From an uncultured Candidatus Saccharibacteria bacterium (GTDB taxonomy: Bacteria > Patescibacteria > Saccharimonadia > Saccharimonadales > UBA5946), in NCBI GenBank assembly GCA_946886435.1, contig CAMPIR010000013.1, positions 1 through 15,227 of the forward strand: 15,227 nt of DNA. The letters run 5' to 3'. A model generated the notes under the pieces. The model had not been told where the DNA came from. It worked only from the letters and a program-made list of their open reading frames with translations, and searched no databases. Below, one piece after another: positions 1-14,454 of the stretch (position 1 is its first letter; every line of letters starts with the position of its first letter). A program made the position numbers and the translations under genes.

Positions 1-1085
1 GTGCGGCGACGAATGAGATCATAGAGTTTTTGGTCGTATTCATTGCCTGAGCCGCGCTCCAGGCTCATGTCGGTCGGACGAATCGCTTCGTGGGCTTCCT
101 GGGCGCTCGAGTTTTTGGTCTTGAACGTACGAACATGCAAGTACTCATCACCGTAGGCACTCTTTATATAAGAGCTGGCGCCTGCGATGGCCTGTCCGCT
201 CAAGTTGACTGAGTCGGTACGCATATAGGTGATCTTACCGTCTTGGTAGAGTTTCTGAGCGCTAGACATGGTTGCTTTGGAGCCAAAACCAAGTTTTGCG
301 TTGGCGTCCTGCTGAAGCGTACTGGTCGTAAACGGCGCAGCTGGATTACGGGTACTCGGGCTGGTTGTGACGCCCGCGACGCTAAAGCTCGCGTCCCGGA
401 GGCTCTCAAGGAAAGTGCGAGCTTCGTCTTCGGTATCGAACCGATGCGGCAACTCGGCCTTTACTTCGTCTGAGCCATGCAGAAAAACAGCGACAACCTT
501 GAATTGATATGATCCCTCAAACTGCCGTATCTCACGCTCACGCTCGACGAGGAGTCTAACCGCAGGGCTCTGGACGCGACCGGCGCTTTTGCCTCCGGGA
601 ACTTTTTGCCATACGACTGGGCTTAGCTCAAAACCAACGATACGGTCCAGAATCTGCCGTGCCTGTTGAGCCTGGACAAGCTGCATATCAACTGTACGTG
701 GTTGCTTGATAGCTTCGGTGATGGCGCTTTCGGTGATCTCATGAAAGACGATACGTTTTGTCGTCTGAGGGTCGAGGCCTAGCACCTCACAAAGGTGCCA
801 AGCAATGGCCTCCCCTTCGCGGTCTTCATCAGTGGCGAGCCAGACTGTTTCAGCGGCTTTTACTGCCTTTTTGAGCTCGGTGATAACCTTTTTCTTTTCA
901 GGATCCACCTCGTAGATAGTCTTAAAGCCGTTCTTGACGTCGATCGGCGGTGTGCCGTCTTTGGTCTTTTTCACGATCGAGCGGATATGGCCGATAGACG
1001 AAAGCACAGTAAAATCCTTACCGAGGTATTTCTCGATAGTTTTGGCTTTTGCCGGGGACTCTACGATGACGAGATTTTTATTCAT
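1..1085 (-). CDS. topA: DNA topoisomerase I, N-terminal 361 residues (partial)
   Basis: Type IA topoisomerase that relaxes negatively supercoiled DNA by cutting one strand through a tyrosine-DNA link. The visible protein begins MNKNLVIVESPAKAKTIEKY, the classic TopA start, with the TOPRIM acidic residues at Glu9 and in DEDREGE (residues 86-92). The motif ITYMRTDS places the catalytic tyrosine at about residue 287, and QEAHEAIRPTD follows, as in the family. The reading frame is open to the window edge, so the rest of the catalytic region and any C-terminal zinc or basic domains lie outside. The ATG at 1085 is chosen because the conserved N-terminus starts there; only a weak AGAG lies upstream. 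The 71-codon gene to its right is divergent and dprA lies beyond it; dprA-topA proximity is common in bacteria. Confidence 0.97.
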   Translation of the reverse strand, partial: MNKNLVIVESPAKAKTIEKYLGKDFTVLSSIGHIRSIVKKTKDGTPPIDVKNGFKTIYEVDPEKKKVITELKKAVKAAETVWLATDEDREGEAIAWHLCEVLGLDPQTTKRIVFHEITESAITEAIKQPRTVDMQLVQAQQARQILDRIVGFELSPVVWQKVPGGKSAGRVQSPAVRLLVEREREIRQFEGSYQFKVVAVFLHGSDEVKAELPHRFDTEDEARTFLESLRDASFSVAGVTTSPSTRNPAAPFTTSTLQQDANAKLGFGSKATMSSAQKLYQDGKITYMRTDSVNLSGQAIAGASSYIKSAYGDEYLHVRTFKTKNSSAQEAHEAIRPTDMSLERGSGNEYDQKLYDLIRRR

Positions 1086-1091
1086 ACTCTA

Positions 1092-1122
1092 TATATGCTT
1101 GTGCTTAAGACTAGGTAGTCAA
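1092..1122 (-). promoter_or_regulatory. candidate topA promoter
   Basis: On the minus strand TTGACT (1117-1122) lies 17 nt from AGCATA (1094-1099) or 19 nt from CATATA (1092-1097), 6-8 nt before the topA ATG. The -35 is good and the -10 is ambiguous. If used, the topA mRNA would have almost no leader. Confidence 0.4.
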
Positions 1123-1288
1123 CTGCCCATACTACGGGAAACGTCAAAAAAAGCAAATAGAGTCGTCCGAATTTCGACCGTATCCACACCCTTGGAAAAA
1201 TAAGTGTAACAATTTTCACATTTTTTATTGACAAGCGTTATACCAGAGAGCAGACTAGAGGTAGCTTCCGATACCAGCCGTAAAGGTA

Positions 1289-1316
1289 TTGACAAAAACA
1301 ATATAAAGTATATAAT
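1289..1316 (+). promoter_or_regulatory. strong sigma70-type promoter for the 71-codon gene
   Basis: TTGACA (1289-1294) and TATAAT (1311-1316) are both perfect consensus boxes, spaced 16 nt. The -10 ends 9 nt before the ATG at 1326, so the transcript should have a 0-4 nt leader. The rest of the 1086-1325 gap shows only AT-rich DNA, a lone TTGACA at 1228-1233 without a matching -10, and no gene. Confidence 0.8.
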
Positions 1317-1325
1317 ACGGAGATC

Positions 1326-1541
1326 ATGGATACGATGACACCTAAAGTAGATATCATAGAGCAAGGTAACCCATACGAAGTCCCACGCGTACAGCATGGA
1401 GAAGCATTGCTTCACGATCTAGATGTGCCTGAAGTTGTTCGCTCATCCTACGAAAAAGCAGAAGCAGAGCATCACGCAGCTGCACTCGAAACACGTGGTG
1501 CGCGGATTGCTGTCGCTGACACTGTTGTCATAACTCTGTAG
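1326..1541 (+). CDS. uncharacterised 71-residue protein
   Basis: I do not recognise this protein. It is acidic, without a signal peptide or membrane helix. Residues 30-58 (after the LLHDLDVPEVV segment) are rich in Glu, Ala and His and look helical (SSYEKAEAEHHAAALETRGA), followed by a hydrophobic tail ending VVITL. The case for a real gene is the consensus promoter immediately upstream, plausible codon use, and a stop (TAG, 1539-1541) two bases before the convergent stop of dprA. A GGAG at 1319-1322 is only 3 nt from the ATG and probably upstream of the transcription start, so initiation is likely leaderless. No terminator is visible after it, so transcription may run antisense into dprA. 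Confidence 0.65.
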   Translation: MDTMTPKVDIIEQGNPYEVPRVQHGEALLHDLDVPEVVRSSYEKAEAEHHAAALETRGARIAVADTVVITL

Positions 1542-1543
1542 TT

Positions 1544-2392
1544 TTATAATCCCCACCGATTTGCCCCGAGGGGGTGTACAATACCCCTGAGCTCGAGCAT
1601 CGTCATCGTTTGGGAATACAGCGCCGGATCGAGCCTGCTTTCTACTTGTAGCTCGTCGCCATCGCTGACACCACGTACGAGTAGATCGAGTATGGTCTGC
1701 TCTTCTTTTGTCTCCGCGAGAATAGTTAACTGCTTTGCGGACACCTTCGGTAGTAGTTGATCAACGAACTGCTCGATATTGACGATCGGCGCTGCACCTT
1801 GAGCGATGAGCGCATTGCAGCCAGCACTCATAGGGCTCGTGATCGGCCCGGGGACGGCATAGACATCCTTGCCCTGTTCAAGGGCATGCGACGCAGTATT
1901 CATGGTGCCGCTCCGTATGCTTGCCTCTGTTATGACGATAATGTCCGCTAAACCGCTAACAAGACGGTTCCTCTCGAGGAATCTGTACTGTAGCGGTGGT
2001 GTCCCTGGTTCGTATTCACTTATCAAGGCGCCATGTTGGTCTGCTATGTTCTTTGCAAGTGCCTGATGTGCACTGGGGTAAATCTGGTCTGGGCCGGACG
2101 GTAGCACGGCGACCGTTTTGCCCCCTACCCTAAGCGCACCTTGGTGCGCGATGCCATCAACGCCGTGAGCCAGGCCGCTGACGATAACTGCTCCGCGCTC
2201 AGCGAGACGCTCGGCGATCATGCTCGTGACCTGCTTGCCATAGGCCGTTGGCTTACGGGTACCAACTATTGCTACTCCAGTGGCGTACGTCGGGATAGTA
2301 CCTATGACATACAGTTTACGAGGCGGCTGCGGTATGACGGTGAGTCGCTGAGGAAAGACTGGATCTGAAGCGCTTATGCTATTGATTTTCAT
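1544..2392 (-). CDS. dprA: DNA processing protein DprA/Smf
   Basis: DprA binds incoming single-stranded DNA during natural transformation and loads RecA onto it in the cytoplasm. The 282-residue protein has the Rossmann-like DprA core: VGTRKPTAYG (43-52), SGLAHGVDGIAHQGAL (72-87), LPSGPDQIYP (97-106), SEYEPG (125-130), FLERNRLVSGLAD (138-150), then SGTMNTASHALEQGKDVYAV (161-180) and PGPITSPMSAGCNALIAQGA. Residues about 220-282 fit the small winged-helix C-terminal domain (DML1-like). It is shorter than many DprA proteins because the N-terminal SAM-like domain is reduced to about 35 residues. No Shine-Dalgarno is visible before the ATG, and no better start exists downstream. Its presence implies that the organism takes up DNA or descends from one that did. 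It converges on the 71-codon gene. Confidence 0.95.
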   Translation of the reverse strand: MKINSISASDPVFPQRLTVIPQPPRKLYVIGTIPTYATGVAIVGTRKPTAYGKQVTSMIAERLAERGAVIVSGLAHGVDGIAHQGALRVGGKTVAVLPSGPDQIYPSAHQALAKNIADQHGALISEYEPGTPPLQYRFLERNRLVSGLADIIVITEASIRSGTMNTASHALEQGKDVYAVPGPITSPMSAGCNALIAQGAAPIVNIEQFVDQLLPKVSAKQLTILAETKEEQTILDLLVRGVSDGDELQVESRLDPALYSQTMTMLELRGIVHPLGANRWGL

Positions 2393-2412
2393 GAGTATTG
2401 TGTTAAATAGTA

Positions 2413-2441
2413 TTGACTTTATGTAAAAACCGTGCTAATAT
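2413..2441 (+). promoter_or_regulatory. extended -10 promoter of the ncRNA gene
   Basis: TTGACT (2413-2418), a 17-nt spacer, and TAATAT (2436-2441) preceded by TGC, giving an extended -10. Transcription should start near 2447-2449. No open reading frame of useful length follows, which points to an RNA gene. It diverges from dprA, whose ATG is at 2392. Confidence 0.75.
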
Positions 2442-2501
2442 ACTGCATGGTTGATCGCGTTAAGCGGTCAAACGCACCTTATACCCCCAATTCTAACGTA
2501 A

Positions 2502-2580
2502 GTTAGAGTGCGCGTGAATGTGCTTCGAAGTTTTCTACCCTCCACTTTGAGCAACTATAAACGTTCACGTGCATACTAAC
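2502..2580 (+). other. long hairpin inside the ncRNA, with a competing upstream stem
   Basis: The arms 2502-2521 and 2561-2580 pair over 20 positions with one mismatch. The foot of the 5' arm (GTTAG, 2502-2506) can instead pair with CTAAC at 2493-2497, forming a 6-bp hairpin (2492-2497 with 2502-2507) with a GTAA tetraloop. The two folds are mutually exclusive at the foot. Confidence 0.6.
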
Positions 2581-2729
2581 CCCTTTAACCCCCTGTTATT
2601 CTTTTGCGAGGTGACAGGGATCCCGATTTTTCAGGCGGTCTTCGCGTATTGCAAGTATGAAGAACTGGATTTATCCAGGCGCACGATGCGTACCTAAATA
2701 CATCAGTAGCGCTTTGCAGCGAGTAGCCC

Positions 2730-2789
2730 GGGTGGGTTGAAGGGTCGAATGGTGCCAGGTGATGCCCACCCTTACCTGGTACCTTTCGA
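2730..2789 (+). other. H-type pseudoknot at the 3' end of the ncRNA
   Basis: GGTGCCAGGT (2751-2760) pairs with ACCTGGTACC (2774-2783), with one G-U. The 13-nt loop contains CCCACCC (2765-2771), an exact complement of GGGTGGG (2730-2736). TCGAA (2745-2749) pairs with TTCGA (2785-2789), lengthening the hairpin stem across one U-U mismatch. Confidence 0.6.
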
Positions 2790-2805
2790 TGAATTGGATA
2801 TAAGA

Positions 2806-2839
2806 AAAATAACCCCGGCATATGTCAGGGTTATTTTTT
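2806..2839 (+). terminator. intrinsic terminator of the ncRNA gene
   Basis: AAAATAACCC (2806-2815) pairs exactly with GGGTTATTTT (2828-2837), followed by a run of T (2834-2839). It closes the RNA gene and separates it from the membrane-protein operon. Confidence 0.85.
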
Positions 2840-2909
2840 ATGTGAAATTTCAGTCTTATGCAATAACATTGACGAAATAGGAATGATTTTATTTGGTAAG
2901 GCTTTAGAG

Positions 2910-2915
2910 TATACT
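2910..2915 (+). promoter_or_regulatory. candidate -10 box for the two-gene membrane operon
   Basis: TATACT at 2910-2915 lies 37 nt before the first ATG. The -35 region at 2887-2892 (TTTTAT) is weak. A TTGACG at 2869-2874 is too far away to pair with it. Confidence 0.4.
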
Positions 2916-2952
2916 GGCCTGCAAGCCCGATGTTTTTGATAGGAGGCAGTAC

Positions 2953-3198
2953 ATGTTCTGGATGTTTTTCCCGGTCTATCGACCGCAGACGGAAACCGAT
3001 CCGGTGGTTATCCGGTGGTGCATGGTGGCGCTGGCCTCGATGGTCAGCTACGCAGTGAGCGCGATGGCGCTTCTCATCATCGAGCCGAGTGACATGTTGA
3101 GCGCACAGCTCATCCGAGGATTTTTCACGATCCTGATGTACGCAAGCATTGCCTACGTTGTCTACGCGTACCTGCGCGTAGTGACACGGCGTCGATAG
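2953..3198 (+). CDS. small two-helix membrane protein (81 residues), paralog A
   Basis: I cannot assign a family. A short N-terminal segment (about 20 residues) precedes helix 1 (about residues 21-43, rich in Val, Ala and Met), a short polar loop starting EPSDM, and helix 2 (about 55-75), then the basic tail RVVTRRR. The positive tail suggests that the C-terminus is cytoplasmic. A strong Shine-Dalgarno AGGAGG (2941-2946) sits 6 nt before the ATG. It is followed 19 nt later by paralog B in the same direction. The two align without gaps from a DP dipeptide, through a 26-residue helix, to an EP dipeptide exactly 30 residues on, and share a Y-x-YL motif in helix 2. Confidence 0.8.
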   Translation: MFWMFFPVYRPQTETDPVVIRWCMVALASMVSYAVSAMALLIIEPSDMLSAQLIRGFFTILMYASIAYVVYAYLRVVTRRR

Positions 3199-3217
3199 AG
3201 GAATCAGGAGGTAACGC

Positions 3218-3496
3218 ATGCTCGACTGGCTCATGTACCGTCGCGACGGAGGTGAACGACGGATCGATCCGTACGTGATTGCCTCCGGGTCGCTGTTTTT
3301 CGGCAGCCTCCTCTGTTCAGTGCTCTGTCTGGGTGTTCTGACGCTGTTTGAGCCGAACGGGACGATGTTTGTCTCATCTCTCTGGGTCGTACTCATGCTG
3401 TTCGCTTGGGCTAACATCGGTCTGTCGCTCTACTGCTACTTGCTTTTCGCGTTCTACATGTTCGAATGGTTGATTGCGGAAAGGCTTGAGGGATGA
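3218..3496 (+). CDS. small two-helix membrane protein (92 residues), paralog B
   Basis: Second gene of the pair, with its own strong Shine-Dalgarno AGGAGG (3206-3211) 6 nt before the ATG. An N-terminal polar stretch (MLDWLMYRRDGGERR) leads to DPYVI, a hydrophobic helix (about residues 20-44), a loop starting EPNG, and a second long hydrophobic stretch (about 52-84) rich in Leu, Phe and Tyr, with a charged end (AERLEG). The spacing from DP to EP is the same 30 residues as in paralog A, which argues for tandem duplication. Co-transcription makes a heteromeric membrane complex a reasonable guess. I see no catalytic residues and do not recognise the family. Confidence 0.8.
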   Translation: MLDWLMYRRDGGERRIDPYVIASGSLFFGSLLCSVLCLGVLTLFEPNGTMFVSSLWVVLMLFAWANIGLSLYCYLLFAFYMFEWLIAERLEG

Positions 3497-3508
3497 GCGC
3501 CCCAAAAG

Positions 3509-3548
3509 AAGGACGGCCCATGGAGCGCGTATGCTCCGGGCCGTCCTT
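3509..3548. terminator. strong hairpin between convergent operons
   Basis: AAGGACGGCCC (3509-3519) pairs with GGGCCGTCCTT (3538-3548). The inner stem GGAGC/GCTCC has a 6-nt loop and a 2-nt bulge. Reading on the minus strand, the stem is followed by TTCTTTT, so it fits best as the terminator of der-pth. On the plus strand the downstream bases are C-rich, so it would stop the membrane operon less efficiently. Confidence 0.75.
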
Positions 3549-3558
3549 CCCCTACCCC

Positions 3559-4113
3559 CTAGATGTGTGTCGTGTGGGTGAAATTGCCGGAGATAAAGTC
3601 ATTGATGATGTCGATGACTTTTTTTGATGCTGCGTGAAGCACGTCACTCTCGGTTTTGGTGAAGTTGCTGAGGACGAAATCCGCATCATCGATTTTATCG
3701 CGCAGCTCGTTATAGACACCGATCCGGATACGGGCAGTCTCATGTCCGAGATGTTGGTTTATCGACTTGATGCCGTTATTGCCAGCGTCAGAGCCGCCGA
3801 TACGGGTTCGGATGGTTCCGAACGGTAGCGCGAGCTCGTCGTGAATGATCAGGATGTCTTCTGGTGCAATCTTGTAAAAATCAACAATCAACCGTCCTGC
3901 TTCGCCGACGTTGTTATAGTATGTCGTTGGTTTCGCGAGTATGACCTTTTCGCCGTCAATGTTGAGCTCAGCGATATGCGCTCGGAACTTATCTTTGTTC
4001 TGAAAATCTACATCATGTGCGCCTGTATACGTATCCAGCATCCAAAACCCGATATTATGTCGGGTTTTCGCGTAGCGCTCTTCTGGGTTACCGAGGCCGA
4101 TGATGAGTTTCAT
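3559..4113 (-). CDS. pth: peptidyl-tRNA hydrolase
   Basis: Frees tRNA from peptidyl-tRNA dropped by stalled ribosomes, an essential cytoplasmic activity. The 184 residues match the usual size (about 190). Key positions are present: GLGNP (6-10), catalytic His19 in TRHNIGF, KPTTYYNN (61-68) with Asn67 in the substrate-binding slot, Asp92 in HDELALPFG, and NNGIKSI (112-118) with Asn113. The usual Met of the TYMN motif is Tyr here, and the GGHGGHNG loop reads GGSDAGNNG; both are divergences from the proteobacterial enzyme that keep the catalytic Asn/His/Asp set. The ATG lies 2 nt after the der stop, and its Shine-Dalgarno (AGAGGA) sits inside the end of der, so translation is probably coupled. 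Confidence 0.97.
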   Translation of the reverse strand: MKLIIGLGNPEERYAKTRHNIGFWMLDTYTGAHDVDFQNKDKFRAHIAELNIDGEKVILAKPTTYYNNVGEAGRLIVDFYKIAPEDILIIHDELALPFGTIRTRIGGSDAGNNGIKSINQHLGHETARIRIGVYNELRDKIDDADFVLSNFTKTESDVLHAASKKVIDIINDFISGNFTHTTHI

Positions 4114-4115
4114 GG

Positions 4116-5525
4116 CTAGTCCTCTTTGCTTTGCTTTTCAGCTTCCTTGCGGGCCTTGTAGGCCTTTGTAACAGGTTCTTTACCCTGCTTTACTCGTTCA
4201 CGGTTGCTTTTGATCTGCTTTTCGTCACGGAAAGAGAACATGATCGGCGTGCCGCTAAAGTCGTGTGCGTCGCGGACGCTACGCTCGAGGTAACGCTTGT
4301 AGGACCAGTGGAGGAACTTGAGGTTGGCGCCAAAGATAACGAACCACGGTGGCCCAACGTCGGTTTGTACCATATAGCGCAGTTTTGGCATGGTGTTCTT
4401 GAGGCCGGCTGGCGGGTGCTTGCGTACGCAGGCCTGAAGGACACGGTTGAGCTCTGTTGTCTTGAGTTGAGAGTGACGGCGTTCGTCGATCTGAAGCGCA
4501 ACATCGAAGAGCTTCGTGACGTTCTGGCCGGTCACTGAGCTGGTAAATACGAGCGGTGCCCACGGAACGAACGCAAAGTTCCGAGCAATCTGTGGTGCGA
4601 GCGCATCCCTCGTGTAGGCATCGCGGTCTTCGACACTGTCCCATTTACTGACGACGATAACGAGGCCTTTGCCGGCTTCTTTGATCAGCCCAGCGATCTT
4701 TTGGTCGAGCTGGGTATTGAGCTCGTTGACATCCATGAGAAGCAGGCAGATATCAGCTTCTTCAACCGCCTGGAGCGTCCGGAGGACGGAAAACTTTTCG
4801 ATGCCAACCTCTTGTTTTCCGGAACGGCGGATACCGGCGGTGTCGAGCAGTTCGATATCGCGCTCATGATAGCGAACGGCGACGCGGTTCACGTCTCTGG
4901 TCGTACCGGCTATATTGGCGACAATCGCCTGTTGTTTACCGGCGAGCGTGTTAAATAGGTTGCTTTTGCCAACGTTTGGTCGTCCAACGAGAGCGATACG
5001 TAGGACTTCATCGGGCTCAGTCTCCGTGACGGCGGGAAGTTCTGCGGTAACAGTATCGAGTAGTCGCCTCGTGCCTTGGTTGTGCTCGGCGCTCGTACGG
5101 ACGATAGTCTTGATGCCGAGTCGAAGGAACTCGTCGTTCTCGAGTGAGCCCTTGAGGTCGGTTTTATTGAGAACGAGAATAACTGGCTTTTTGCTCTTTA
5201 GCGCTGTTTTTGCGATACGACGATCCTCATCACTTGGATAAATCGTGCTGTCAACGACGACCATGATGACGTCTGCTAGCTCAACCGCTTCGGTGATCTG
5301 TTCCTGAATGCTGGCTTCGAACTCATCCTCAGCGGATTTCAGGCCGGCCGTGTCGACAAGCCAGAAGTGCTTGTTGTTGTCGGTTATGCGGCGAACAACA
5401 TTGTCTCGGGTCGTGCCCGCTTCACGCGCAACAATCGCCTCTTGTGATCCATAGAGGCGATTAAACAGGCTACTCTTGCCTACGTTAGTCTGGCCAACGA
5501 TTGCTACAGCGGGGAGCTTACTCAT
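4116..5525 (-). CDS. der: ribosome assembly GTPase Der (EngA)
   Basis: Der carries two consecutive GTPase domains and a KH-like domain and acts in late assembly of the large ribosomal subunit. G domain 1: GQTNVGKS (11-18), AGTTRD, DTAG (58-61), NKTD (120-123). G domain 2: GRPNVGKS (181-188), AGTTRD, DTAG (228-231), and SKWD (293-296), where most Der proteins have NKWD. The C-terminal part (about 350-440) fits the KH-like domain, including the GTPIMFSFRDE segment, and the protein ends in a lysine-rich tail. Length (469) is normal. The start is fixed by the N-terminal motif and by a -10 box 7 nt upstream. It heads an operon with pth. Confidence 0.97.
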   Translation of the reverse strand: MSKLPAVAIVGQTNVGKSSLFNRLYGSQEAIVAREAGTTRDNVVRRITDNNKHFWLVDTAGLKSAEDEFEASIQEQITEAVELADVIMVVVDSTIYPSDEDRRIAKTALKSKKPVILVLNKTDLKGSLENDEFLRLGIKTIVRTSAEHNQGTRRLLDTVTAELPAVTETEPDEVLRIALVGRPNVGKSNLFNTLAGKQQAIVANIAGTTRDVNRVAVRYHERDIELLDTAGIRRSGKQEVGIEKFSVLRTLQAVEEADICLLLMDVNELNTQLDQKIAGLIKEAGKGLVIVVSKWDSVEDRDAYTRDALAPQIARNFAFVPWAPLVFTSSVTGQNVTKLFDVALQIDERRHSQLKTTELNRVLQACVRKHPPAGLKNTMPKLRYMVQTDVGPPWFVIFGANLKFLHWSYKRYLERSVRDAHDFSGTPIMFSFRDEKQIKSNRERVKQGKEPVTKAYKARKEAEKQSKED

Positions 5526-5532
5526 TACCTCT

Positions 5533-5561
5533 ATTGTAACAGAGGTGCCCTATATTGACAA
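5533..5561 (-). promoter_or_regulatory. der promoter, leaderless type
   Basis: Minus strand TTGTCA (5556-5561), 17-nt spacer, TACAAT (5533-5538) preceded by TGT (extended -10). The -10 ends 7 nt before the der ATG, so the mRNA would begin at or next to the start codon. Its -35 overlaps the -35 of the divergent plus-strand promoter. Confidence 0.7.
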
Positions 5562-5583
5562 TAGTAAAAATATTTGCTATAAT
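5555..5583 (+). promoter_or_regulatory. perfect consensus promoter of the 93-codon gene
   Basis: TTGACA (5555-5560), 17-nt spacer, TATAAT (5578-5583) preceded by TGC. All elements are consensus. The -10 ends 9 nt before the ATG at 5593, and an in-frame ATG at 5587 would lie before the expected transcription start, so 5593 is preferred. Confidence 0.85.
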
Positions 5584-5592
5584 AGTATGATT

Positions 5593-5874
5593 ATGGGTCG
5601 CGAAGTTATACCTGGTGAAACCGTACCTCTCGAAGTGTTTCCGGTAGAGCTCAAGGAACGAGCCGGGCGAGTCGCTTTACGTGCGCTTGCGCTGAGCCTC
5701 CCCGTCCCGCGAGACGTCCAGGACATTTTGGATGCGACTGATGCGGAGCTCCGCGCAGTACAGCTGACCGAGAACAAGCAATCATTCGATGACCTGAATC
5801 GGCTGGAGCTGACACAGCAAGAACGGCTAGGCATTGCTTACGGGCTGGGTCTTGCCGGACGCAAGTCCGTTTAG
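5593..5874 (+). CDS. uncharacterised 93-residue protein
   Basis: I do not recognise the family. The protein is soluble-looking, acidic and mostly helical by composition: residues 17-35 (VELKERAGRVALRALALSL), 40-60 (DVQDILDATDAELRAVQLTE) and 65-88 could be three amphipathic helices, ending in GLGLAGRKSV. A consensus promoter precedes it with no room for a Shine-Dalgarno, so it is probably translated from a leaderless mRNA. The last 48 bases overlap, tail to tail, the coding end of the pseudouridine synthase on the other strand. Codon choice is like that of its neighbours. It is divergent from der and shares the promoter region with it. Confidence 0.7.
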   Translation: MGREVIPGETVPLEVFPVELKERAGRVALRALALSLPVPRDVQDILDATDAELRAVQLTENKQSFDDLNRLELTQQERLGIAYGLGLAGRKSV

Positions 5875-6519
5875 ACTGTATGGCCCAAAGTCTGTCCTGT
5901 GTAGTTTCGTTACAGTGTAGCCGAGTGCTGCAAATGTACGCCGTATCTGTCGATTTCGACCCTCACTCATCGTGACGCGCCATGTATTGCGGTCTTTATC
6001 GTTCATCCTTTCGAGTGTCAGCTTGCTCGAGCCGTCTTCGAGGGATATACCGTAGTCGTTGATCATCTGCTGATGGAGGGGCTCGAGATCCCGGTCTAGT
6101 TCGACTTCATAGAGTTTGCGTTTTTGAAACTTCGGATGAGTCATGCGGTGGGCAAAGTCGCCGTCGTCGGTCAATATAAGAACGCCCGAGCTGTCGCGGT
6201 CGAGTCGCCCGACCGGTTTGAGCTTGCGCTGTTCTGGCGGAAGGAGTTCATAAATAGTCGGATAATCGCCCTGTCGCTTGCGAGAGCAAACGTAGCCGAC
6301 TGGCTTATGCAGCGCGAGGTAGGTGTACGCTTGCTGCTCGCCGATAGGCTTTCCGTCGAGCAATACAACTGCCCCAGCAGGCACCTGCGAACCCATGCCG
6401 GCTTTTTTGCCGTCGATAACGACTCGGCCGGCTGCAATGGCGTTGTCAGCCTCGCGACGACTGATGCCGGTAGCATGGGCTAAGTATTTGTTGGCACGAG
6501 TCGTACCGGTCTCATTCAT
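5827..6519 (-). CDS. RsuA/RluB/E/F-family rRNA pseudouridine synthase
   Basis: Isomerises a specific uridine in rRNA to pseudouridine. Residues about 8-55 form an S4 RNA-binding domain (RANKYLAHATGISRREADNA, then AGRVVIDGK). The catalytic domain has LALHKPVGYVCS (68-79), GRLDRDSSGVLILTDDGD (104-121) with catalytic Asp107, and the late motifs EGRNRQIRRTFAALG and LHRTDFGPYSL. The 230-residue length is normal for the family. The sequence alone does not tell 16S-acting RsuA from 23S-acting RluB. The ATG at 6519 lies 15 nt after the response regulator stop. A TATACT box 7 nt before the ATG may allow separate leaderless transcription. The 3' end overlaps the convergent 93-codon gene by 48 bases. 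Confidence 0.93.
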   Translation of the reverse strand: MNETGTTRANKYLAHATGISRREADNAIAAGRVVIDGKKAGMGSQVPAGAVVLLDGKPIGEQQAYTYLALHKPVGYVCSRKRQGDYPTIYELLPPEQRKLKPVGRLDRDSSGVLILTDDGDFAHRMTHPKFQKRKLYEVELDRDLEPLHQQMINDYGISLEDGSSKLTLERMNDKDRNTWRVTMSEGRNRQIRRTFAALGYTVTKLHRTDFGPYSLNGLASGKTQPVSNA

Positions 6520-6526
6520 AGAGATA

Positions 6527-6532
6527 AGTATA
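6527..6532 (-). promoter_or_regulatory. possible -10 box for the pseudouridine synthase gene
   Basis: TATACT on the minus strand ends 7 nt before the ATG at 6519, inside the gap after the response regulator gene. No matching -35 is visible, so this is weak by itself; it is listed because the spacing repeats at other genes here. Confidence 0.3.
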
Positions 6533-6534
6533 CG

Positions 6535-7407
6535 CTATGCGTTCGGTGGCGTAGGCGGCGGTGGTGGAGGTGGCGGCACGGATCCGTCGTCTGGTAGCTC
6601 GAACGTCAACGATGGATCAGCCGTAATCTCACCGGGTGTAAAGTTTGCTATCTGTTCGTTGATGGCTTGCTTTTCCTGATCAGTGGTTTGTACCTCTGGA
6701 CGGCTTTCTTCAGAAATGCCGGCTTCTTTTGCGAGTTCACGATCGAGCAGTTCGTTGATATCGACTGGCTTGCTGTTTGGGTTGTCTATCGGTTGTATGA
6801 TGCGCGTCTTGATGGAGGCGGGTTTCGGCGTTTGCGGTAGAGGCGCCGGTTGAGGCATAGGCATCGGGGCCGGAGATGCTACAGGGGGCTGCGGAACCGG
6901 TGCGGGCGCTACAGGTGGCTGCGGTGTCGGTACAACAGGCTGTGGCTGAGATGGCGCCTCAGGACGAGGTGGGACGGTTTGTTGCGGAGCTGCAGCAGGT
7001 GCCGACACAGGTGCGGCGGCAGGAGCTGGGGCCGGTTGGGCATCTTCAAGTACCTCGTGGACAACCCGGACAACATCTTCGATACCTACCTGAGACTTAA
7101 CGAGGTAGCGATCCGCGCCTAGTGTCTCGCCGCGCTGCCGTTGATCCTCGCTGCTCAGCGCGGTCATCATGATTACTTTGATGTTTTTGGTTTCTGTCGT
7201 TGAACGAAGGATATCGAGCATGTCAAAGCCACTGATTTTTGGCATCATAACGTCGCTGACTATCAGCTGTGGACGTTCCTTGATGGCCATCGCTAGGGCT
7301 TCTTCACCGTCACCGGCTGAGACGATATCGTAACCTTCGGCGAGTAGTCGAACACCATAAATCTCGCGGAGGCTTTTGTCGTCTTCGACAAGCATAATCT
7401 TTGTCAT
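6535..7407 (-). CDS. response regulator with proline-rich C-terminal tail
   Basis: Residues 1-120 are a CheY-like receiver: acidic pocket Glu8-Asp9-Asp10, phospho-acceptor Asp52 in LIVSDVMMPKISG, Thr82 and Lys104 in YLVKS. The remaining 170 residues contain no recognised DNA-binding or enzymatic domain. Residues about 122-195 are a Pro/Ala/Gln-rich low-complexity linker, 200-275 are charged and may be helical (DINELLDRELAKEAG), and the protein ends with eight consecutive prolines followed by TPPNA. The output is thus unlikely to be a classical transcription factor; protein-protein contact is more likely. The ATG follows GGAG at 5-nt spacing. It is 48 nt downstream of the histidine kinase gene in the same direction, so the two very probably form a signalling pair. 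Confidence 0.88.
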   Translation of the reverse strand: MTKIMLVEDDKSLREIYGVRLLAEGYDIVSAGDGEEALAMAIKERPQLIVSDVMMPKISGFDMLDILRSTTETKNIKVIMMTALSSEDQRQRGETLGADRYLVKSQVGIEDVVRVVHEVLEDAQPAPAPAAAPVSAPAAAPQQTVPPRPEAPSQPQPVVPTPQPPVAPAPVPQPPVASPAPMPMPQPAPLPQTPKPASIKTRIIQPIDNPNSKPVDINELLDRELAKEAGISEESRPEVQTTDQEKQAINEQIANFTPGEITADPSLTFELPDDGSVPPPPPPPPTPPNA

Positions 7408-7455
7408 ATTATCTCCATTGTAAAAACTTATCGGTAAAAAAGCTATACCTTTGTT

Positions 7456-9222
7456 TTAGGTTTGCTGATTTGGCTGTGGAACTTGGGGTTCAGCCGGGGG
7501 TGCCTGGGGCTCGGTCGGTGGCGCTGGCTGCTGTGCCTGTGGCTCCACTGGGGCTTGTGTTGGTCGGACGGCATTAAGCGCATCCTCTTTTGTGACTCGC
7601 GGTACATCCACGGTAAAGGTGCTTCCCTCACCGTAGGCGCTCTCGACATTGAGATGTCCATCCATCGCTTCGCAGAGGCGACGCGCCAGATAAAGCCCAA
7701 GACCGGTACCACCGATTTCGCGGGTATCGGAGTTATCGACGCGGTAGAACTTTTGAAACAGGTGCGACATGTCTTCTGCTGGGATGCCGAGACCAGTATC
7801 TTTGACGCTGACGAAGACGTGTTGATCGTCACCGGTGACGTCAACGGTTACGGAACCTTCTTTGGTGTATTTGATGGCGTTTGTGACGAGGTTGGTGATG
7901 ACTTCGCGTAGATGGTCAAGGTCAACGTTTGCGTAGAAGAGCGGCGTTATTGTCTGGTTTGATACGCTTGCCGTTTGAGGTTTAAAGATGAGCGACAATC
8001 CTTTTTCATTGAACTGCGCCGAAAAGTCTTCGAGGACCGTTCGGATGAAAGCCGTCACATCCGTGATGGTGGGCTTGCTGTTTAGCCGACCATCCTCTGC
8101 CCTTGAGACGTCTAGGAGGTCCTGGAAGAGGCGGCCAAGGTGTTGGGCGGCCTCGTGTGCCTTTGCGAGGTAAGCCCTTGCCTTATCGTCGATGGTCGCC
8201 GTCTGCGGGTTGAGTGCTAGGCCGAGGTAGCCTTCAATCGCAGCGACTGGTGTGCGCATCTCGTGACTGGCTGTGCTGATGAATTCGGCTTGTTCACGTT
8301 CTTCGGCGTGCTGAGCGGTTGTGTCACGAAAGACGATGATTACACCGTTTCCGCCGGCTCCAAGTGGCGAAACCAATATGGACGCGAGCAACTGTTTACC
8401 CGAAACGGTCCGGATACCCAGGTCGTTGTTCATGACAGGTTCGTTCGTGCGAAGGCATTTTTGTACTGGGTCAATCTGATCATCAACGATTTCGTTCTTG
8501 CTGTTGATAATCTTGAGCACTGAACGGTAGTCGAGCGTTACCGCGTCTTCTCCGCCCCAGCCGATGATTCGCTGTGCGGCTGGATTGATGAGCTGGATGG
8601 TGCCTCGAGGGTCTATCGCGATTACACCGTCTGCGATAGCGTTGATGACGATGTCGGATTTGTTTGATTCCTTGTCGAGCTCGAGTGTCAGCGCAGACAT
8701 TTTTGAAGGAGAGCTATCTTGACCCTGGAGTCGACGCGCCCAGATAAAGTAACCGACGATGACTGGCAGGGCGAAGTTCAACCCAAACGTTACCCAGGTT
8801 GCGACCGTTGCTTCATCTATATACCACAAGTAGGCGCCATAGGCTGTGATAGCTCCGATAACCGGTAGCGCTGAACGTAGTCCGATGAGCCCGGAAAACA
8901 GAGCGACCATCATCCAGAATGCCAGGTACGGCGAGCTGAGGTTGCCGGTACTCGCGATGACGAGGAGCATGGTTACGCTCAGCGACACGATGACGGCAAA
9001 TGTCCCCCAGGTGTAGGTTTTTTTGCGCTGTAAGATGGCCATTGAGCCAGCAACCACCCCAGTGATAGCCAGCATGAGCGCGGTAGTTGTCGAAACATGC
9101 AAAGGCTCAAGAATCGAGCTATGCAGGAAAAATGTAGAGGCTATCCAGATGCCGCCGATGATCATGCACAGCAAGACGGCGATTTCACATATGAGTCGGT
9201 ACCAAAATTTTACGAGTGTCAC
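7456..9222 (-). CDS. membrane sensor histidine kinase with PAS domain and proline-rich tail
   Basis: Sensor kinase of 588 residues. The first 165 residues hold about six hydrophobic helices with short loops, so sensing is probably within or near the membrane. Residues about 185-300 are a PAS domain (NAIADGVIAIDPRGTIQLIN ... VIIVFRDTT). HisKA domain: FISTASHEMRTPVAAIEGYL with phospho-acceptor His320. ATPase domain: N box VITNLVTNAIKYTKEG (441-456), G1 DTGLGIP (475-481), F box FQKFYRVDNSD, and G2 GGTGLGLYLARRL. Residues about 550-588 form a Pro/Gln/Glu tail with repeated PQA/PPAEPQ units, echoing the tail of the adjacent regulator. The start is GTG (9220-9222) with AAAAGG 9 nt upstream. It is the first gene of the kinase-regulator-pseudouridine synthase cluster. 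Confidence 0.93.
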   Translation of the reverse strand: MTLVKFWYRLICEIAVLLCMIIGGIWIASTFFLHSSILEPLHVSTTTALMLAITGVVAGSMAILQRKKTYTWGTFAVIVSLSVTMLLVIASTGNLSSPYLAFWMMVALFSGLIGLRSALPVIGAITAYGAYLWYIDEATVATWVTFGLNFALPVIVGYFIWARRLQGQDSSPSKMSALTLELDKESNKSDIVINAIADGVIAIDPRGTIQLINPAAQRIIGWGGEDAVTLDYRSVLKIINSKNEIVDDQIDPVQKCLRTNEPVMNNDLGIRTVSGKQLLASILVSPLGAGGNGVIIVFRDTTAQHAEEREQAEFISTASHEMRTPVAAIEGYLGLALNPQTATIDDKARAYLAKAHEAAQHLGRLFQDLLDVSRAEDGRLNSKPTITDVTAFIRTVLEDFSAQFNEKGLSLIFKPQTASVSNQTITPLFYANVDLDHLREVITNLVTNAIKYTKEGSVTVDVTGDDQHVFVSVKDTGLGIPAEDMSHLFQKFYRVDNSDTREIGGTGLGLYLARRLCEAMDGHLNVESAYGEGSTFTVDVPRVTKEDALNAVRPTQAPVEPQAQQPAPPTEPQAPPAEPQVPQPNQQT

Positions 9223-9252
9223 GGTTATATGCCTTTTATAATGCTTTTGTTT

Positions 9253-9258
9253 AGTATA
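9253..9258 (-). promoter_or_regulatory. candidate -10 box for the kinase cluster
   Basis: TATACT on the minus strand would give a start near 9246 and a leader of about 24 nt that includes the AAAAGG ribosome site. No good -35 is visible because a terminator stem occupies 9273-9300. Confidence 0.35.
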
Positions 9259-9272
9259 GCGTACTACGAAAC

Positions 9273-9300
9273 AATCTCACGCCGTTTCTGGCGTGAGATT
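9273..9300 (-). terminator. hairpin terminator after the 83-codon gene
   Basis: AATCTCACGCC (9273-9283) and GGCGTGAGATT (9290-9300) are an exact 11-bp inverted repeat with a 6-nt loop. On the minus strand it is followed by a moderately T-rich GTTTCG, so it is a plausible but not textbook terminator for the gene ending at 9323. Confidence 0.65.
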
Positions 9301-9322
9301 ACAACATTTTTTGAGAGATGGC

Positions 9323-9574
9323 TCAACGCGATATGGTGAGCAGGTTCCAGGTGTGGGTGCTCGGTTCGAGCTTGAGGCGAAAGAGCGACTCGCCATCACT
9401 TAGGTCGAATAGCCTCGTGATAACTCCACCTCGTTTGATGCAGTAGCGAAGACCCTCGTCGATAAAGCTGATCGTTCGTCCCTCGAACTCTATTCTTTTT
9501 GGAACCGGTTCGAAGTTTCTCGCAAAGCGAACTGCGGTTACTTCGACTGGCTGCTCTATTTTCGTCCTTGTCAT
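9323..9574 (-). CDS. uncharacterised 83-residue basic protein
   Basis: I do not recognise a named family. The protein starts MTRTKIEQPVEVTAVRFARN and alternates short hydrophobic strands with charged turns (PKRIEFEGRTISFIDEG, GGVITRLFDLSD, SLFRLKLEP, WNLLTIS), which suggests a small all-beta fold of about five strands. The pattern resembles short bacterial proteins with a 'PKRIxFxGR' core, but that is an impression only. The ATG at 9574 is chosen because GGGAG lies 7 nt upstream. A longer frame from a GTG at 9685 would need to translate through a terminator hairpin and its T-run, and has no ribosome site. The long leader with a hairpin suggests control after transcription initiation. Confidence 0.75.
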   Translation of the reverse strand: MTRTKIEQPVEVTAVRFARNFEPVPKRIEFEGRTISFIDEGLRYCIKRGGVITRLFDLSDGESLFRLKLEPSTHTWNLLTISR

Positions 9575-9604
9575 AGCACGTCTCCCTGTAAGATAAAAAG
9601 ATAT

Positions 9605-9646
9605 AAAAAAGACTGACAGAATCGTTTGAACTATAAACGTGTCAGT
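9605..9646 (-). terminator. attenuator-like hairpin upstream of the 83-codon gene
   Basis: On the minus strand ACTGAC (9641-9646) and CGTTT (9635-9639) pair with AAACG (9623-9627) and GTCAGT (9612-9617), with a 5-nt bulge, followed by TTTTTT (9605-9610). It lies 31 nt before the start codon. An alternative 7-bp stem AATCGTT/AACGATT uses part of the same sequence and would break the terminator. Confidence 0.5.
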
Positions 9647-9808
9647 GAACGATTGGTGGAGATTGGTACTACATGGATACGGCACGCTATTCGTTCAAGT
9701 AGCTGCTAAAACCGAGGTAGTAAGTGTGTAAGCGCGGGTGCGCCGTGCGTAAAGCTTGTCAGTGAAAATCCATCTATTTGGACGAAAGTACTCACATAGC
9801 TACGCCCT

Positions 9809-9814
9809 AGTATA
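9809..9814 (-). promoter_or_regulatory. possible -10 box of the leader RNA
   Basis: TATACT on the minus strand, with TTACGA 17 nt upstream as a poor -35. A start near 9802 would give a leader of about 230 nt before the ATG at 9574. Confidence 0.35.
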
Positions 9815-9882
9815 GCCCGCTCCATGAGCTGTCGTAAGTCTTGTTTTGCTGTGCGATTGAGTGTGAAAATGAGGTTTTATGG

Positions 9883-11229
9883 TTAACCAGGCAGTCGGAT
9901 GTAGACCGTTGTGCCCTTATTCTCTTCTGAGGTGAGCCAGAGCTCGCCGCCGTGCTGTTCGATGGCGTCCCGTGACATATAGAGCCCCATTCCGGTTCCG
10001 TTGGTCTCAGTGCTGACGGCGTTGCTTGCACGGTAAAATCCAGCAAAGACCTTTTCCTGCTCGCCCTTTGGGATGCCAATCCCACGGTCGGTGATGCTGA
10101 TAACGTGGTGACCGCCAACTCTTTCGTAGGAGACGGTGACGGCTGTGTCGGGGTGGGCGTATTTGATGGCGTTGCTGATGAGGTTGTTAAATACTCGCTT
10201 TAACCGTTGGGCATCACAGTTGATGACTAGCGCCTTTGGCCATTTGCGGGCGTACTCGAGCGTGACGTCTCGCTGAGCAGCCGGGAGCTTTTGGGTGGCA
10301 AATATACCGTCAAGGATGTGGACGATGTCGGTCGAGGTGATAAGCAGCTGTTCTGACCGGCCTGCCTGCCAGTTGGCTACCTGTAGGATGTCCTCGATAC
10401 TTTCCTGGAGCCGGATCGTGCTATCGTACATACTCTGGACGGTTTCATGGTTCTGTTTCGGGAGTTTTGCCCCGAGAAGTGTCTCCTCACTCCAGCGGAT
10501 ACCAGTAAGCGGTGTCCGTAGTTCATGTGACGCGATCGAGACCAACTCGCTTCGCATTCGCACGGCTTCTTGGCGGCGGCGGTGGATTGAGTCAGTCATC
10601 ACAAACACAGCCATGATCAGCAAAGCGCCAAATACCGGCAGCAATGCGGCCAAAGCTATGTTCTGATAATAGATGGCTGCTGGTGTATCTATGCCAAGCA
10701 TCGCGACTGTTTCGTTCTGAATAGTACGGATTGGCGCCGTGGCCGACAGCCAGGTGCCATTTTGATCATTTCGTGGCCCTTCGATAAGGGTCGTGCCTGT
10801 AAAGTATGCTGACTTCAGCGCTTCTGATGCCCGGGCAGAGGTCGAGGATTGTTCATCCTTCGAGCTCAGAAGATAGTAGACGTCGTTTGTATTAGTGACG
10901 GCTATGAGATAAATGCTGTGCACGTCGTTGTTTACTGAACTTGCCTGTTCAAGGCGTTGTTTGAGCGATCGAACCTCAGGCTGGTCTTTTGGTGCCGCTG
11001 ATTTGACGGACTCTATCTGCTTTGAACTGATAAGTGCCGCCATACTCTCGACTCGCTGCGTGAGCGATGAGATATACGCATTGTGGACGATAAAGACAGA
11101 CAAAATCCCTACGACCAGGCCAACGAGAAACACCAGCAATACTTTGACGCGGGTCGACACGAGCAGGCCGCCCTGTTCGTGTCGGGGTTGTTTAGTGATG
11201 ACTGGTTTTTTTGTGTTTTTCAGAGGCAT
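9883..11229 (-). CDS. membrane sensor histidine kinase with extracytoplasmic sensor domain
   Basis: Sensor kinase of 448 residues. Helix 1 (about 28-50, VLLVFLVGLVVGILSVFIV) and helix 2 (about 190-212, IALAALLPVFGALLIMAVFV) enclose an extracytoplasmic domain of about 140 residues, size and pattern of a PDC/dCache-type sensor (inference). HisKA: ELVSIASHELRTPLTGIRWS with phospho-acceptor His235. ATPase: RVFNNLISNAIKYAHPD (345-361), G1 DRGIGIP (381-387), F box KVFAGFYRASN, G2 GTGMGLYMSRDAI (411-423). No HAMP domain is evident. The start lies 9 nt after the stop of the receiver gene, so both are co-transcribed with the regulator first. No terminator is visible after the stop. Confidence 0.93.
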   Translation of the reverse strand: MPLKNTKKPVITKQPRHEQGGLLVSTRVKVLLVFLVGLVVGILSVFIVHNAYISSLTQRVESMAALISSKQIESVKSAAPKDQPEVRSLKQRLEQASSVNNDVHSIYLIAVTNTNDVYYLLSSKDEQSSTSARASEALKSAYFTGTTLIEGPRNDQNGTWLSATAPIRTIQNETVAMLGIDTPAAIYYQNIALAALLPVFGALLIMAVFVMTDSIHRRRQEAVRMRSELVSIASHELRTPLTGIRWSEETLLGAKLPKQNHETVQSMYDSTIRLQESIEDILQVANWQAGRSEQLLITSTDIVHILDGIFATQKLPAAQRDVTLEYARKWPKALVINCDAQRLKRVFNNLISNAIKYAHPDTAVTVSYERVGGHHVISITDRGIGIPKGEQEKVFAGFYRASNAVSTETNGTGMGLYMSRDAIEQHGGELWLTSEENKGTTVYIRLPG

Positions 11230-11238
11230 AGTTGCGAG

Positions 11239-11616
11239 TTATATCGTGACGTATTTTCTAGCAAGCTCAAGAATCTGTTCGAGCGACGTGTCAGCCTTTA
11301 GGACATAGTCGTGGACGCCGCTCGCTAGCGCCTCATAGACCACTGACGTGTCGTAGCCGTTGGTGTCAAAAACGACCTCGGCTTTTGCGCCCCATTCGTC
11401 TTCACGGAGTTTTTTGAGTACTTCGAGACCGTCCATGCCAGGCATTTGATAATCGAGAAATAGTAGCTTTGGCTTGTGCTCGAGAGCCAGTTTTAGGCCT
11501 TCTTCGCCGTTTGGTGCATCCATGACGGCGTAGCCTGCTCCAGTCAGGTGTTTAACAATCGCCTCGCGCAAGGAGTCGTCGTCATCGATCACGAGGATGT
11601 GTAGCGTGTCACTCAT
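11239..11616 (-). CDS. stand-alone CheY-like response regulator
   Basis: A receiver domain alone (125 residues). DDDD (11-14) forms the acidic pocket, Asp55 in LLFLDYQMPGMDG is the phospho-acceptor, and Lys107 in DYVLKAD is the conserved lysine. The strand before the switch threonine reads EVVFDTNGYDTS, where most receivers have VIxLTA, so Thr85 is the likely equivalent but the context is unusual. Without an output domain it probably acts by binding a partner, as CheY or Spo0F do. It is first in the operon, and AAAGG lies 10 nt before the ATG. Its partner is presumably the kinase encoded next. Confidence 0.92.
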   Translation of the reverse strand: MSDTLHILVIDDDDSLREAIVKHLTGAGYAVMDAPNGEEGLKLALEHKPKLLFLDYQMPGMDGLEVLKKLREDEWGAKAEVVFDTNGYDTSVVYEALASGVHDYVLKADTSLEQILELARKYVTI

Positions 11617-11638
11617 ACTATATAAACCTTTACTTCTT

Positions 11639-11668
11639 ATAGTACCGTTAGCCGGGGGGTGTTGGCAA
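11639..11668 (-). promoter_or_regulatory. promoter of the receiver-kinase operon
   Basis: Minus strand TTGCCA (11663-11668), 18-nt spacer, TACTAT (11639-11644). The start would be near 11632, with a leader of about 16 nt that contains the ribosome site. Confidence 0.6.
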
Positions 11669-11727
11669 TCGGAAAAGCGTGAGCATTCACTCGCTGCTTA
11701 GCGCTATAAAAATGTCTAGGCACCAGT

Positions 11728-11733
11728 TATACT
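11728..11733 (+). promoter_or_regulatory. -10 box of the 64-codon membrane gene
   Basis: TATACT ends 9 nt before the ATG at 11743, the same distance as at 1326 and 5593. No good -35 is present. The lack of any Shine-Dalgarno between it and the ATG supports leaderless initiation. Confidence 0.5.
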
Positions 11734-11742
11734 GATAGAACA

Positions 11743-11937
11743 ATGAATTTTCTAGAAAATAGATACGTACAGTTGGTTGCATTGACACTAGGTCTTGGCC
11801 TGCTGTTTTGGGCGGTATTTTGGCTGGTGCTCGGCGCACTCGGTCTCAATGACTTTCCCGTAGGTCTGCAGTTGCTTGTCGCCTTTCTCGGCGCGGGGCT
11901 GATCGTGACAAAGTTCTTCTCAAACCGCATTTTTTGA
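11743..11937 (+). CDS. small two-helix membrane protein (64 residues)
   Basis: Two hydrophobic helices: about residues 10-33 (VALTLGLGLLFWAVFWLVLG and following) and about 41-56 (VGLQLLVAFLGAGLIV), separated by a short loop with LNDFP, ending in the basic tail KFFSNRIF. The short N-terminus has one Arg. I do not recognise the family. It has no ribosome-binding site but a -10 box 9 nt upstream, so a leaderless mRNA is likely. It is followed 90 nt later by another envelope protein with its own promoter and ribosome site, and it is divergent from the receiver-kinase operon. Confidence 0.65.
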   Translation: MNFLENRYVQLVALTLGLGLLFWAVFWLVLGALGLNDFPVGLQLLVAFLGAGLIVTKFFSNRIF

Positions 11938-11974
11938 CCCGCTACGCCTGTTGTGAGATATGTTACTTACATAC

Positions 11975-11994
11975 ACCACCCCTGGTGGTATAGT
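11975..11994 (+). promoter_or_regulatory. inverted repeat abutting a -10 box: possible operator
   Basis: ACCACC (11975-11980) and GGTGGT (11984-11989) form a perfect 6-bp inverted repeat with a 3-nt centre. TATAGT (11989-11994) shares its last base and fits as the -10 of the following gene; a repressor bound there would block the spacer. As RNA it would not be transcribed, so an operator is more likely than a terminator. Confidence 0.45.
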
Positions 11995-12027
11995 CTACTC
12001 TCGTAAGTCATAGACGAGGAGGTCATA

Positions 12028-12516: not shown

Positions 12517-12539
12517 CTATATACCGTATACCTATAATT

Positions 12540-12596: not shown

Positions 12597-12613
12597 TCGC
12601 GGCGGACCTGGTG

Positions 12614-12835: not shown

Positions 12836-12841
12836 CTCGCA

Positions 12842-14320: not shown

Positions 14321-14363
14321 AAGGAATCCTCCTAGTTGTGTAGGTACGCCACTCTTAATGTTA

Positions 14364-14447: not shown

Positions 14448-14454
14448 TACCGAT

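Follow-up and report, generated by a model that had tools for sequence, protein, structure and literature searches.

A class-wide structured RNA of Saccharibacteria with an invariant CCUCC loop, a possible regulator of translation

A stretch of 15,227 nucleotides from an uncultured Candidatus Saccharibacteria bacterium (contig CAMPIR010000013.1, positions 1 to 15,227; hereafter the window) carries, at positions 2448-2839, an RNA gene whose family spans the class Saccharimonadia, where it was found in most sampled genomes, usually at one locus. As read from its sequence, the region is confirmed as a structured non-coding RNA gene with promoter and terminator signals of its own. Helices P3/P3ext, P4 and P6 of the RNA are conserved by covariation, and the motif CCUCC is present in all 121 members of the family. 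We propose, at a probability of roughly 0.4, that this is a trans-acting RNA which pairs with ribosome-binding sites through its CCUCC loop.

The original prediction, made from the letters of the window alone, had described a structured RNA gene of about 390 nt with an extended -10 promoter, a perfect intrinsic terminator and no coding frame. The computed fold energy of the window RNA was -158.1 kcal/mol, against -107.6 +/- 5.8 kcal/mol for 100 dinucleotide shuffles (z = -8.7), and this value, together with covariation and the match of an independently built model (both below), bears out the structured RNA gene. The promoter and the terminator are present as described (Table 1), and the terminator hairpin also appears in the computed fold; a loose -35/-10 expression matched upstream of 107 of 120 homologs. 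The sole open reading frame (ORF) of at least 80 aa across the gene is antisense (2671-3417), and its matches in homologs are short stretches only, located at the conserved 3' block of the RNA. On the plus strand, the longest ORF per family member has a median of 40 aa and a maximum of 111 aa, in keeping with the predicted lack of a coding frame.

The 121 members comprise the window and 120 loci extracted from blastn and later searches, with 107 aligned rows; the truncated locus L185 and eight loci from genomes already represented were left out, and L134, L199 and ten clade-II members were excised with hand-set bounds. When positions 2400-2860 were used as a blastn query, 227 of the 392 genomes of the class (some of which may be incomplete) gave a match, a count which includes matches near E 1e-3 that were not inspected singly; the E-values are per genome, and few such matches are expected by chance. 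Most of the similarity fell into two blocks, one covering 190 nt at the 5' end and the other a 3' block of 60 nt. Members range from compact forms of about 260 nt up to about 400 nt; in the window type, about 100 nt are inserted midway along the RNA.

A full-length covariance model (R2), built from an alignment without the window and without L082, the window's closest relative, matched the window at 2445-2802 with 187.4 bits (E 8.6e-62). R2 also found the RNA in 21 of 40 class genomes without a blastn match, half of the 40 being explicitly unmatched by blastn and the other half taken as such by their absence from the match table. Fourteen divergent members are known only through R2; in 13 of these dprA lies no more than 200 nt away, and the remaining one, situated at the edge of a contig, is followed by pth after 40 nt, so that even low-scoring R2 matches look real. 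Among 80 dprA loci, R2 matched only L001 (81.7 bits), from a Candidatus Saccharibacteria metagenome-assembled genome (MAG; genome G001) that holds the closest DprA relative in named genomes; the 79 non-Saccharibacteria loci gave zero matches at E<=1. In a scan across the phylum, the model R1 matched 25 of 379 genomes, and the class search had already included every one of these; only eight candidates were scored per genome and the share of the 379 lying outside the class is not given, so that absence elsewhere is weak evidence. Plasmids and phages yielded no blastn match to the RNA. Every genome matching in the R1 and R2 searches did so once; by blastn, pieces of the 3' block were seen in G258 and G378 on a second contig, near its end.

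Covariation was assessed in two alignments, A1 (31 sequences, 5' domain) and A2 (36 compact full-length sequences of the 121 members, with long forms and divergent clades left out), from the second of which R2 was built. In A1, 18 of 28 pairs changed on both sides and 93.8% of cells paired, with no measure reached in any of 500 shuffles; the corresponding values for A2 were 33 of 62 pairs and 94.6%, again reached by 0/500 shuffles, a figure that is not a probability, as the shuffles ignore the relatedness of the sequences. Shifting the partner by 1-3 columns in A2 reduced pairing to 35-45%. An unbiased mutual-information scan of 103 non-redundant rows placed 19 of its first 22 column pairs in P3, P6 and its A-U extension, P3b or P4; two P3ext pairs stood lower down, amid pairs reflecting clade differences or alignment noise. 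Absence of covariation among homologs had been named beforehand as evidence against a structured RNA; both alignments clearly gave the opposite result, and the stems seen in the window proved to be helices that covary.

The 5' hairpin P1 was less uniform than the rest over the 107 rows, its first five pairs forming in 71-93 of 95-103 rows and its last in 39 of 81. It is followed by the highly conserved unpaired segment GCACCUUAUACCCCCA; the 5' motif ACCUUAUACCCC occurs in 91 of the 121 members. The 3' strand of P2 is shared with the alternative helix P3ext, and alignments revealed additional complementary bases in the P2 loop of some lineages. Compensatory changes in P3ext ran from A-U to G-C in 11 rows and from G-C to C-G in 10. 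Because GUUAG at 2502-2506 can pair either upstream (P2) or downstream (P3ext), with P3ext the better covarying of the two, P2 and P3ext may be alternative states.

Within the P3 domain, pair 2529-2546 of hairpin P3b covaries and is paired in 107/107 rows. In the long-range helix P4, nine pairs form in 105-107 of 107 rows and the tenth in 79, with compensatory changes at 2581, 2585, 2587 and 2588. The region between P4 strands is lineage-specific, and R2 leaves 124 nt of the window unaligned there (2592-2728). Near the 3' end, 8 of the 10 pairs of P6 change on both sides in A2. Four U residues come after P6 in 95 of 107 rows; this U4 run is missing in the window, which has a separate terminator further on, and in 11 others. 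P6 is terminator-like in most homologs. The 3' pseudoknot of the original prediction (2730-2736 with 2765-2771) fared less clearly: all seven of its pairs are possible in most rows (82-103 of 104, depending on the pair), but compensatory changes were absent from the five that were tested in A2, so that it is compatible with the alignment and not proven. Its C-rich loop is missing in some divergent members. By eye, the divergent members L244-L249, L251 and L254 have a lengthened P3 which competes with P4 for the CCCUUU strand, and lack the C-rich pseudoknot loop; this too hints at a two-state RNA.

Against this background of varying stems, CCUCC at 2539-2543 was identical in 107/107 aligned rows, within the hairpin loop of P3b. 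Thirteen columns of the window row are identical in all 107 rows, and CCUCC is the only run among them longer than two. In the 14 divergent members the motif was located by pattern and the surroundings were then folded locally; it lay in a hairpin loop in 8, and in another 4 a single isolated pair was predicted for it. ACCCUCC is the usual form, with the exposed loop UACCCUCC; ACCUCC is found in one clade and AUCACCCUCCUUU in some of the most divergent members. Unlike CCUCC, other C-rich segments are absent from some clades. We take the 16S 3' tail to be AUCACCUCCUUU, with CCUCC as the core of the 16S anti-Shine-Dalgarno (anti-SD) sequence, and at the level of sequence the P3b loop resembles this tail. 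At positions -18 to -4 of 361 ORF starts in the RNA loci (first ATGs, not verified starts), AGGAG was enriched, with 18 occurrences versus 3 in the background, which indicates that ribosome-binding sites of this kind exist.

In the proposed mechanism, P3/P3ext, P4 and P6 would hold out hairpin loop P3b with its unchanging CCUCC; the loop would most likely pair with SD-like, G-rich ribosome-binding sites and thereby block or tune the translation start of several mRNAs, while the remaining fold would serve as a stable scaffold. A rearrangement between two states is possible, since both P2 and P3ext draw on a single GUUAG strand. Several observations weigh against this proposal. No mRNA target has been identified, and expression is itself inferred; the fold is much larger than known anti-SD small RNAs need. 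In the local folds of L238 and L256, CCUCC did not lie cleanly within a hairpin loop. The sequence fully complementary to the usual loop, GGAGGGU, stood upstream of only 1 of the 361 starts; SD signals were weak to modest and AGGAG-like, and the most enriched upstream words were A/T-rich and not SD-like. Finally, the 14-nt complement of the conserved 5' segment was not conserved elsewhere in 40 genomes: 38 of them matched it with at most one mismatch, which by its place is the RNA's own antisense copy, and in 8 of these 38 there were 9 additional matches (3 genomes for the control pattern). No single long-duplex target of the 5' segment, conserved across the 40 genomes, was found, and a long duplex leaves much of the unpaired conservation unexplained.

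Known RNAs offer partial parallels to pairing through a C-rich loop. Staphylococcal RNAs with C-rich loops, such as RNAIII, are long and structured and use these loops to pair with ribosome-binding sites; the Saccharibacteria RNA is likewise a long structured RNA presenting a C-rich loop, but the window had no Rfam match and its architecture appears to differ from that of RNAIII. Yfr1 of cyanobacteria is described as a small RNA of 54-69 nt with two stem-loops and an invariant unpaired anti-SD-like motif, ACUCCUCACAC (PMC2190773). On that description Yfr1 shares with our RNA a lineage-wide distribution, an invariant unpaired anti-SD-like motif, a terminator hairpin and a genomic position conserved in the majority, whereas the Saccharibacteria RNA is 260-400 nt long with the long-range P4 and a possible pseudoknot, and a sequence relation was not found. 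The alpha-r14/NfeR1 family of rhizobia consists of three simple hairpins, each with CCUCCUCCC (PMC10746234). This family and the Saccharibacteria RNA both carry CCUCC-containing anti-SD motifs in unpaired hairpin regions, the motif being invariant and the stems variable; in contrast to the rhizobial family, the RNA studied here has one CCUCC loop in a complex fold. The loop presents an invariant, unpaired anti-SD motif, as in Yfr1, alpha-r14 and the C-rich RNAs. Descent from Yfr1 or alpha-r14 found no backing among the 4227 families of Rfam 15, none of which matched at the gathering scores used as threshold here and below; the presence of these two small RNAs in Rfam was not checked.

Since SD signals are modest, A/T-rich words are more strongly enriched and GGAGGGU is rare, a protein-binding role is almost as likely as pairing with mRNA. 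The RNA would then be the housekeeping RNA of a ribonucleoprotein (RNP), in which the CCUCC loop, ACCUUAUACCCCC and the P6 loop make protein-binding or tertiary contacts and are not mRNA seeds; the partner is possibly a ribosome-assembly factor or a ribosomal protein whose normal target is the 16S 3' tail. Such an RNA would fit the class-wide spread at a recurrent locus with one model match per matching genome, the large covarying architecture with its long-range P4, and the long conserved unpaired stretches without a conserved complement. Less easily reconciled with it are the absence of a linked protein partner gene, the recurrent neighbours being ordinary housekeeping genes, and the absence of ACCUUAUACCCC from 30 of the 121 members. 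A bolder idea, which we regard as unlikely, would make the RNA a new housekeeping RNA of the whole class, either a mimic of the ribosome tail that acts globally on translation initiation or a stable RNP on ribosomes, and in addition a two-state device. As a mimic it would compete with, or guard, the 16S anti-SD sequence in streamlined parasitic bacteria in which no signal recognition particle (SRP) was detected, and the two competing helices would give the device its two states.

The surroundings of the gene bear on whether it acts in cis. The gene order in the window, with names given by Pfam, is topA, dprA, the RNA, two small ORFs, pth and der (Table 1). Among the 120 homologous loci, which were selected for having the RNA (loci with dprA and without the RNA lie outside the sample), 95 have a divergent dprA at a distance of no more than 200 nt, and 56 have topA in the upstream flank; downstream flanks, often too short to reach these genes, hold convergent pth in 63 and der in 39. 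Eight loci have topA in the upstream flank with dprA undetected or beyond 200 nt. One clade includes nine loci with the RNA inverted with respect to topA and pth, as judged from pth being the nearest known gene in the upstream flank. From this context the RNA appears to be a free-standing gene, able to persist where dprA is undetected; the promoter-like and terminator signals that belong to it and the convergent pth downstream likewise argue for a free RNA and not a leader, and we infer that it is transcribed and acts in trans. A cis-acting element, be it a transcriptional attenuator or leader of the downstream gene or a regulator of divergent dprA, is accordingly very unlikely: the 3' terminator, the P2/P3ext competition and overlapping P4 and pseudoknot strands, which could switch, and the closeness of divergent dprA are what one would expect of it, but the frequent convergent pth, the nine inverted loci, the several loci with dprA undetected and the lack of any counterpart of the window's downstream ORFs beside the RNA elsewhere are not.

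The original prediction had placed the RNA between dprA and a membrane operon. The first neighbour recurs; the two small ORFs of the supposed operon gave no tblastn match beside the RNA in the 120 other loci, whose flanks are often 1.5 kb only. A membrane-protein partner for the RNA, an OLE-like idea, was rejected on the same result. Just 3' of the RNA, a second hairpin-rich conserved element was observed; a hidden Markov model made from six loci matched 10 of the 120, eight of them strongly, two of the eight being non-seed loci, and six of the eight strong matches gave no Rfam match when scanned.

Table 1. Features of the RNA gene, its neighbours in the window and the second conserved element
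Feature	Position	Strand	Remarks
RNA gene	2448-2839	+	-10 box gives the inferred start, terminator the end
Promoter	2413-2441	+	-35 TTGACT 2413-2418, 17-nt spacer, TAATAT 2436-2441 with extended -10 TG 2433-2434 (TG-C-TAATAT 2433-2441)
P1 hairpin	2451-2471 (2451-2458 with 2464-2471)	+	covarying helix 1 in A1 and A2
Highly conserved unpaired segment	2474-2489	+	79-100% identity per base except the last
P2 hairpin, CUAAC/GUUAG	2493-2506	+	92-107 of 102-107 rows paired, hardly any compensation
P3ext	2502-2580 (2502-2506 with 2576-2580)	+	105-107/107 rows paired; competes with P2 for GUUAG
P3	2509-2573 (2509-2519 with 2563-2573)	+	11/11 pairs change both sides in A1; among the top pairs of the unbiased scan
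P3b hairpin	2528-2548	+	12-nt loop UUUCUACCCUCC at 2532-2543, CCUCC at 2539-2543
P4 5' strand, CCCUUUAACC	2581-2590	+	pairs with 2735-2744 (GGUURAAGGG), long-range helix
Lineage-specific middle region	2592-2728	+	shorter in compact members, which carry hairpin P5 there (alignments)
G-rich strand	2730-2744	+	pseudoknot 5' side GGGUGGG 2730-2736, overlaps P4 3' strand 2735-2744
P6 hairpin	2751-2783	+	loop 2761-2773 with CCCACCC 2765-2771, possible pseudoknot partner
Intrinsic terminator, AAAAAUAACCC...GGGUUAUUUUUU	2805-2839	+	sequence; hairpin also in computed fold
topA (partial), recurrent neighbour	3-1085	-	PF01131, E 6.4e-63
dprA, divergent neighbour	1544-2392	-	PF02481, E 5.7e-74
Two tandem small ORFs	2953-3198 and 3218-3496		between the RNA and pth; no Pfam match; membrane-bound look (by eye)
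pth	3559-4113 (with der, 3559-5525)	-	PF01195, E 8.6e-56
der	4116-5525	-	MMR_HSR1 and KH_dom-like (Pfam)
Second element, strong matches	L087:1818-1955, L089:1906-2059, L097:1789-1943, L099:1868-2035, L101:1858-2012, L102:1857-2021, L121:1842-1989, L164:2867-3016		positions counted with the RNA on the + strand, which may differ from the stored strand

The idea that the RNA is a very diverged RNase P RNA, tmRNA, 6S RNA or SRP RNA is close to refuted: its size range would suit RNase P RNA or tmRNA, and 6S and SRP RNA were not clearly found in these genomes (by models that matched only 5/14 controls for 6S and 6/14 for large SRP RNA), but no Rfam family matched, tmRNA (RF00023) has a separate copy above cut-off in 20/20 genomes having the RNA, RNase P RNA (RF00010) has one of 224.8 bits in G001 (the one genome tested), which also has the RNA, below-cut-off 6S (RF00013) matches lie a few kb from tmRNA in 2/20 genomes, and the RNA-binding M domain of Ffh was found in 0/10 genomes versus 14/14 controls. 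The scan of all Rfam covariance models, which the original prediction had proposed as a check, gave no family at gathering score, either for the window or for the 20 homologous loci scanned; at E<=10 there were 18 matches in 2390-2870, the best at E 0.048, all far under gathering scores and mostly over the terminator. ARAGORN gave no match on the window. Diverged forms of tmRNA (no Rfam or ARAGORN match and a separate copy elsewhere), RNase P RNA (no Rfam match and the separate copy in G001) and 6S RNA (no Rfam match in the window) were rejected accordingly, in line with the earlier remark that the motifs of RNase P RNA, tmRNA, SRP RNA and 6S RNA are lacking. With no Rfam match and clear covariation, the anticipated choice between a new family and a very diverged known one is supported.

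The 6S-like matches below threshold, at G177:C1:821085-821237 and G295:C2:918320-918473, lie about 4-8 kb from tmRNA and are possibly diverged Saccharibacteria 6S RNAs. As for SRP RNA, for which RF00169 and RF01854 were the models tested on the window, the small model matched 0/20 genomes (controls 11/14) and the large model 0/20, the latter being weak evidence alone as it matched 6/14 controls, Bacillus subtilis not among them. An SRP helix-8 pattern with one mismatch gave 9 matches in 10 genomes versus 6 for the reversed control. The SRP54/FtsY GTPase domain had matches in 5 of 10 genomes, all partial; one was above cut-off and covered positions 3-41 of 196. A diverged SRP RNA, an idea that arose from the missing SRP RNA, was dropped as Ffh and a convincing SRP54/FtsY GTPase were missing as well. 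By Ffh M domain and SRP54 GTPase, no SRP was detected in G057, G177, G117, G112, G085, G167, G059, G053, G042 and G105, which agrees with the SRP loss published for Parcubacteria (PMC4508563) and stated for many bacteria of the candidate phyla radiation (PMC8080830).

The main text of two large surveys of bacterial non-coding RNAs (ncRNAs) contains no mention of Saccharibacteria, TM7 or dprA (PMC8632094, PMC11109978), and the terms 'ncRNA' and 'non-coding' are absent from the accessible text of a TM7x transcriptome paper (PMC10768705). The annotation of one complete Saccharibacteria genome lists two ncRNAs, without names in the passage at hand (PMC8830319), and five MAGs were annotated with one to four (PMC9302068). 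Among the matches listed in a search of full-text literature, mostly without subscription journals, no description of such an RNA was found.

Saccharibacteria are tiny, widespread, genome-reduced epibionts that live on other bacteria, and to our knowledge few of their regulators are known. As the RNA is kept class-wide at a recurrent locus, also where dprA is undetected, it is likely to be important. As a mimic of the 16S tail it would count as a large and intricate anti-SD RNA, and as part of an RNP it would represent a new housekeeping RNA. Both readings are directly testable in cultured Saccharibacteria, and across the group the RNA may be a shared and overlooked regulator of translation.
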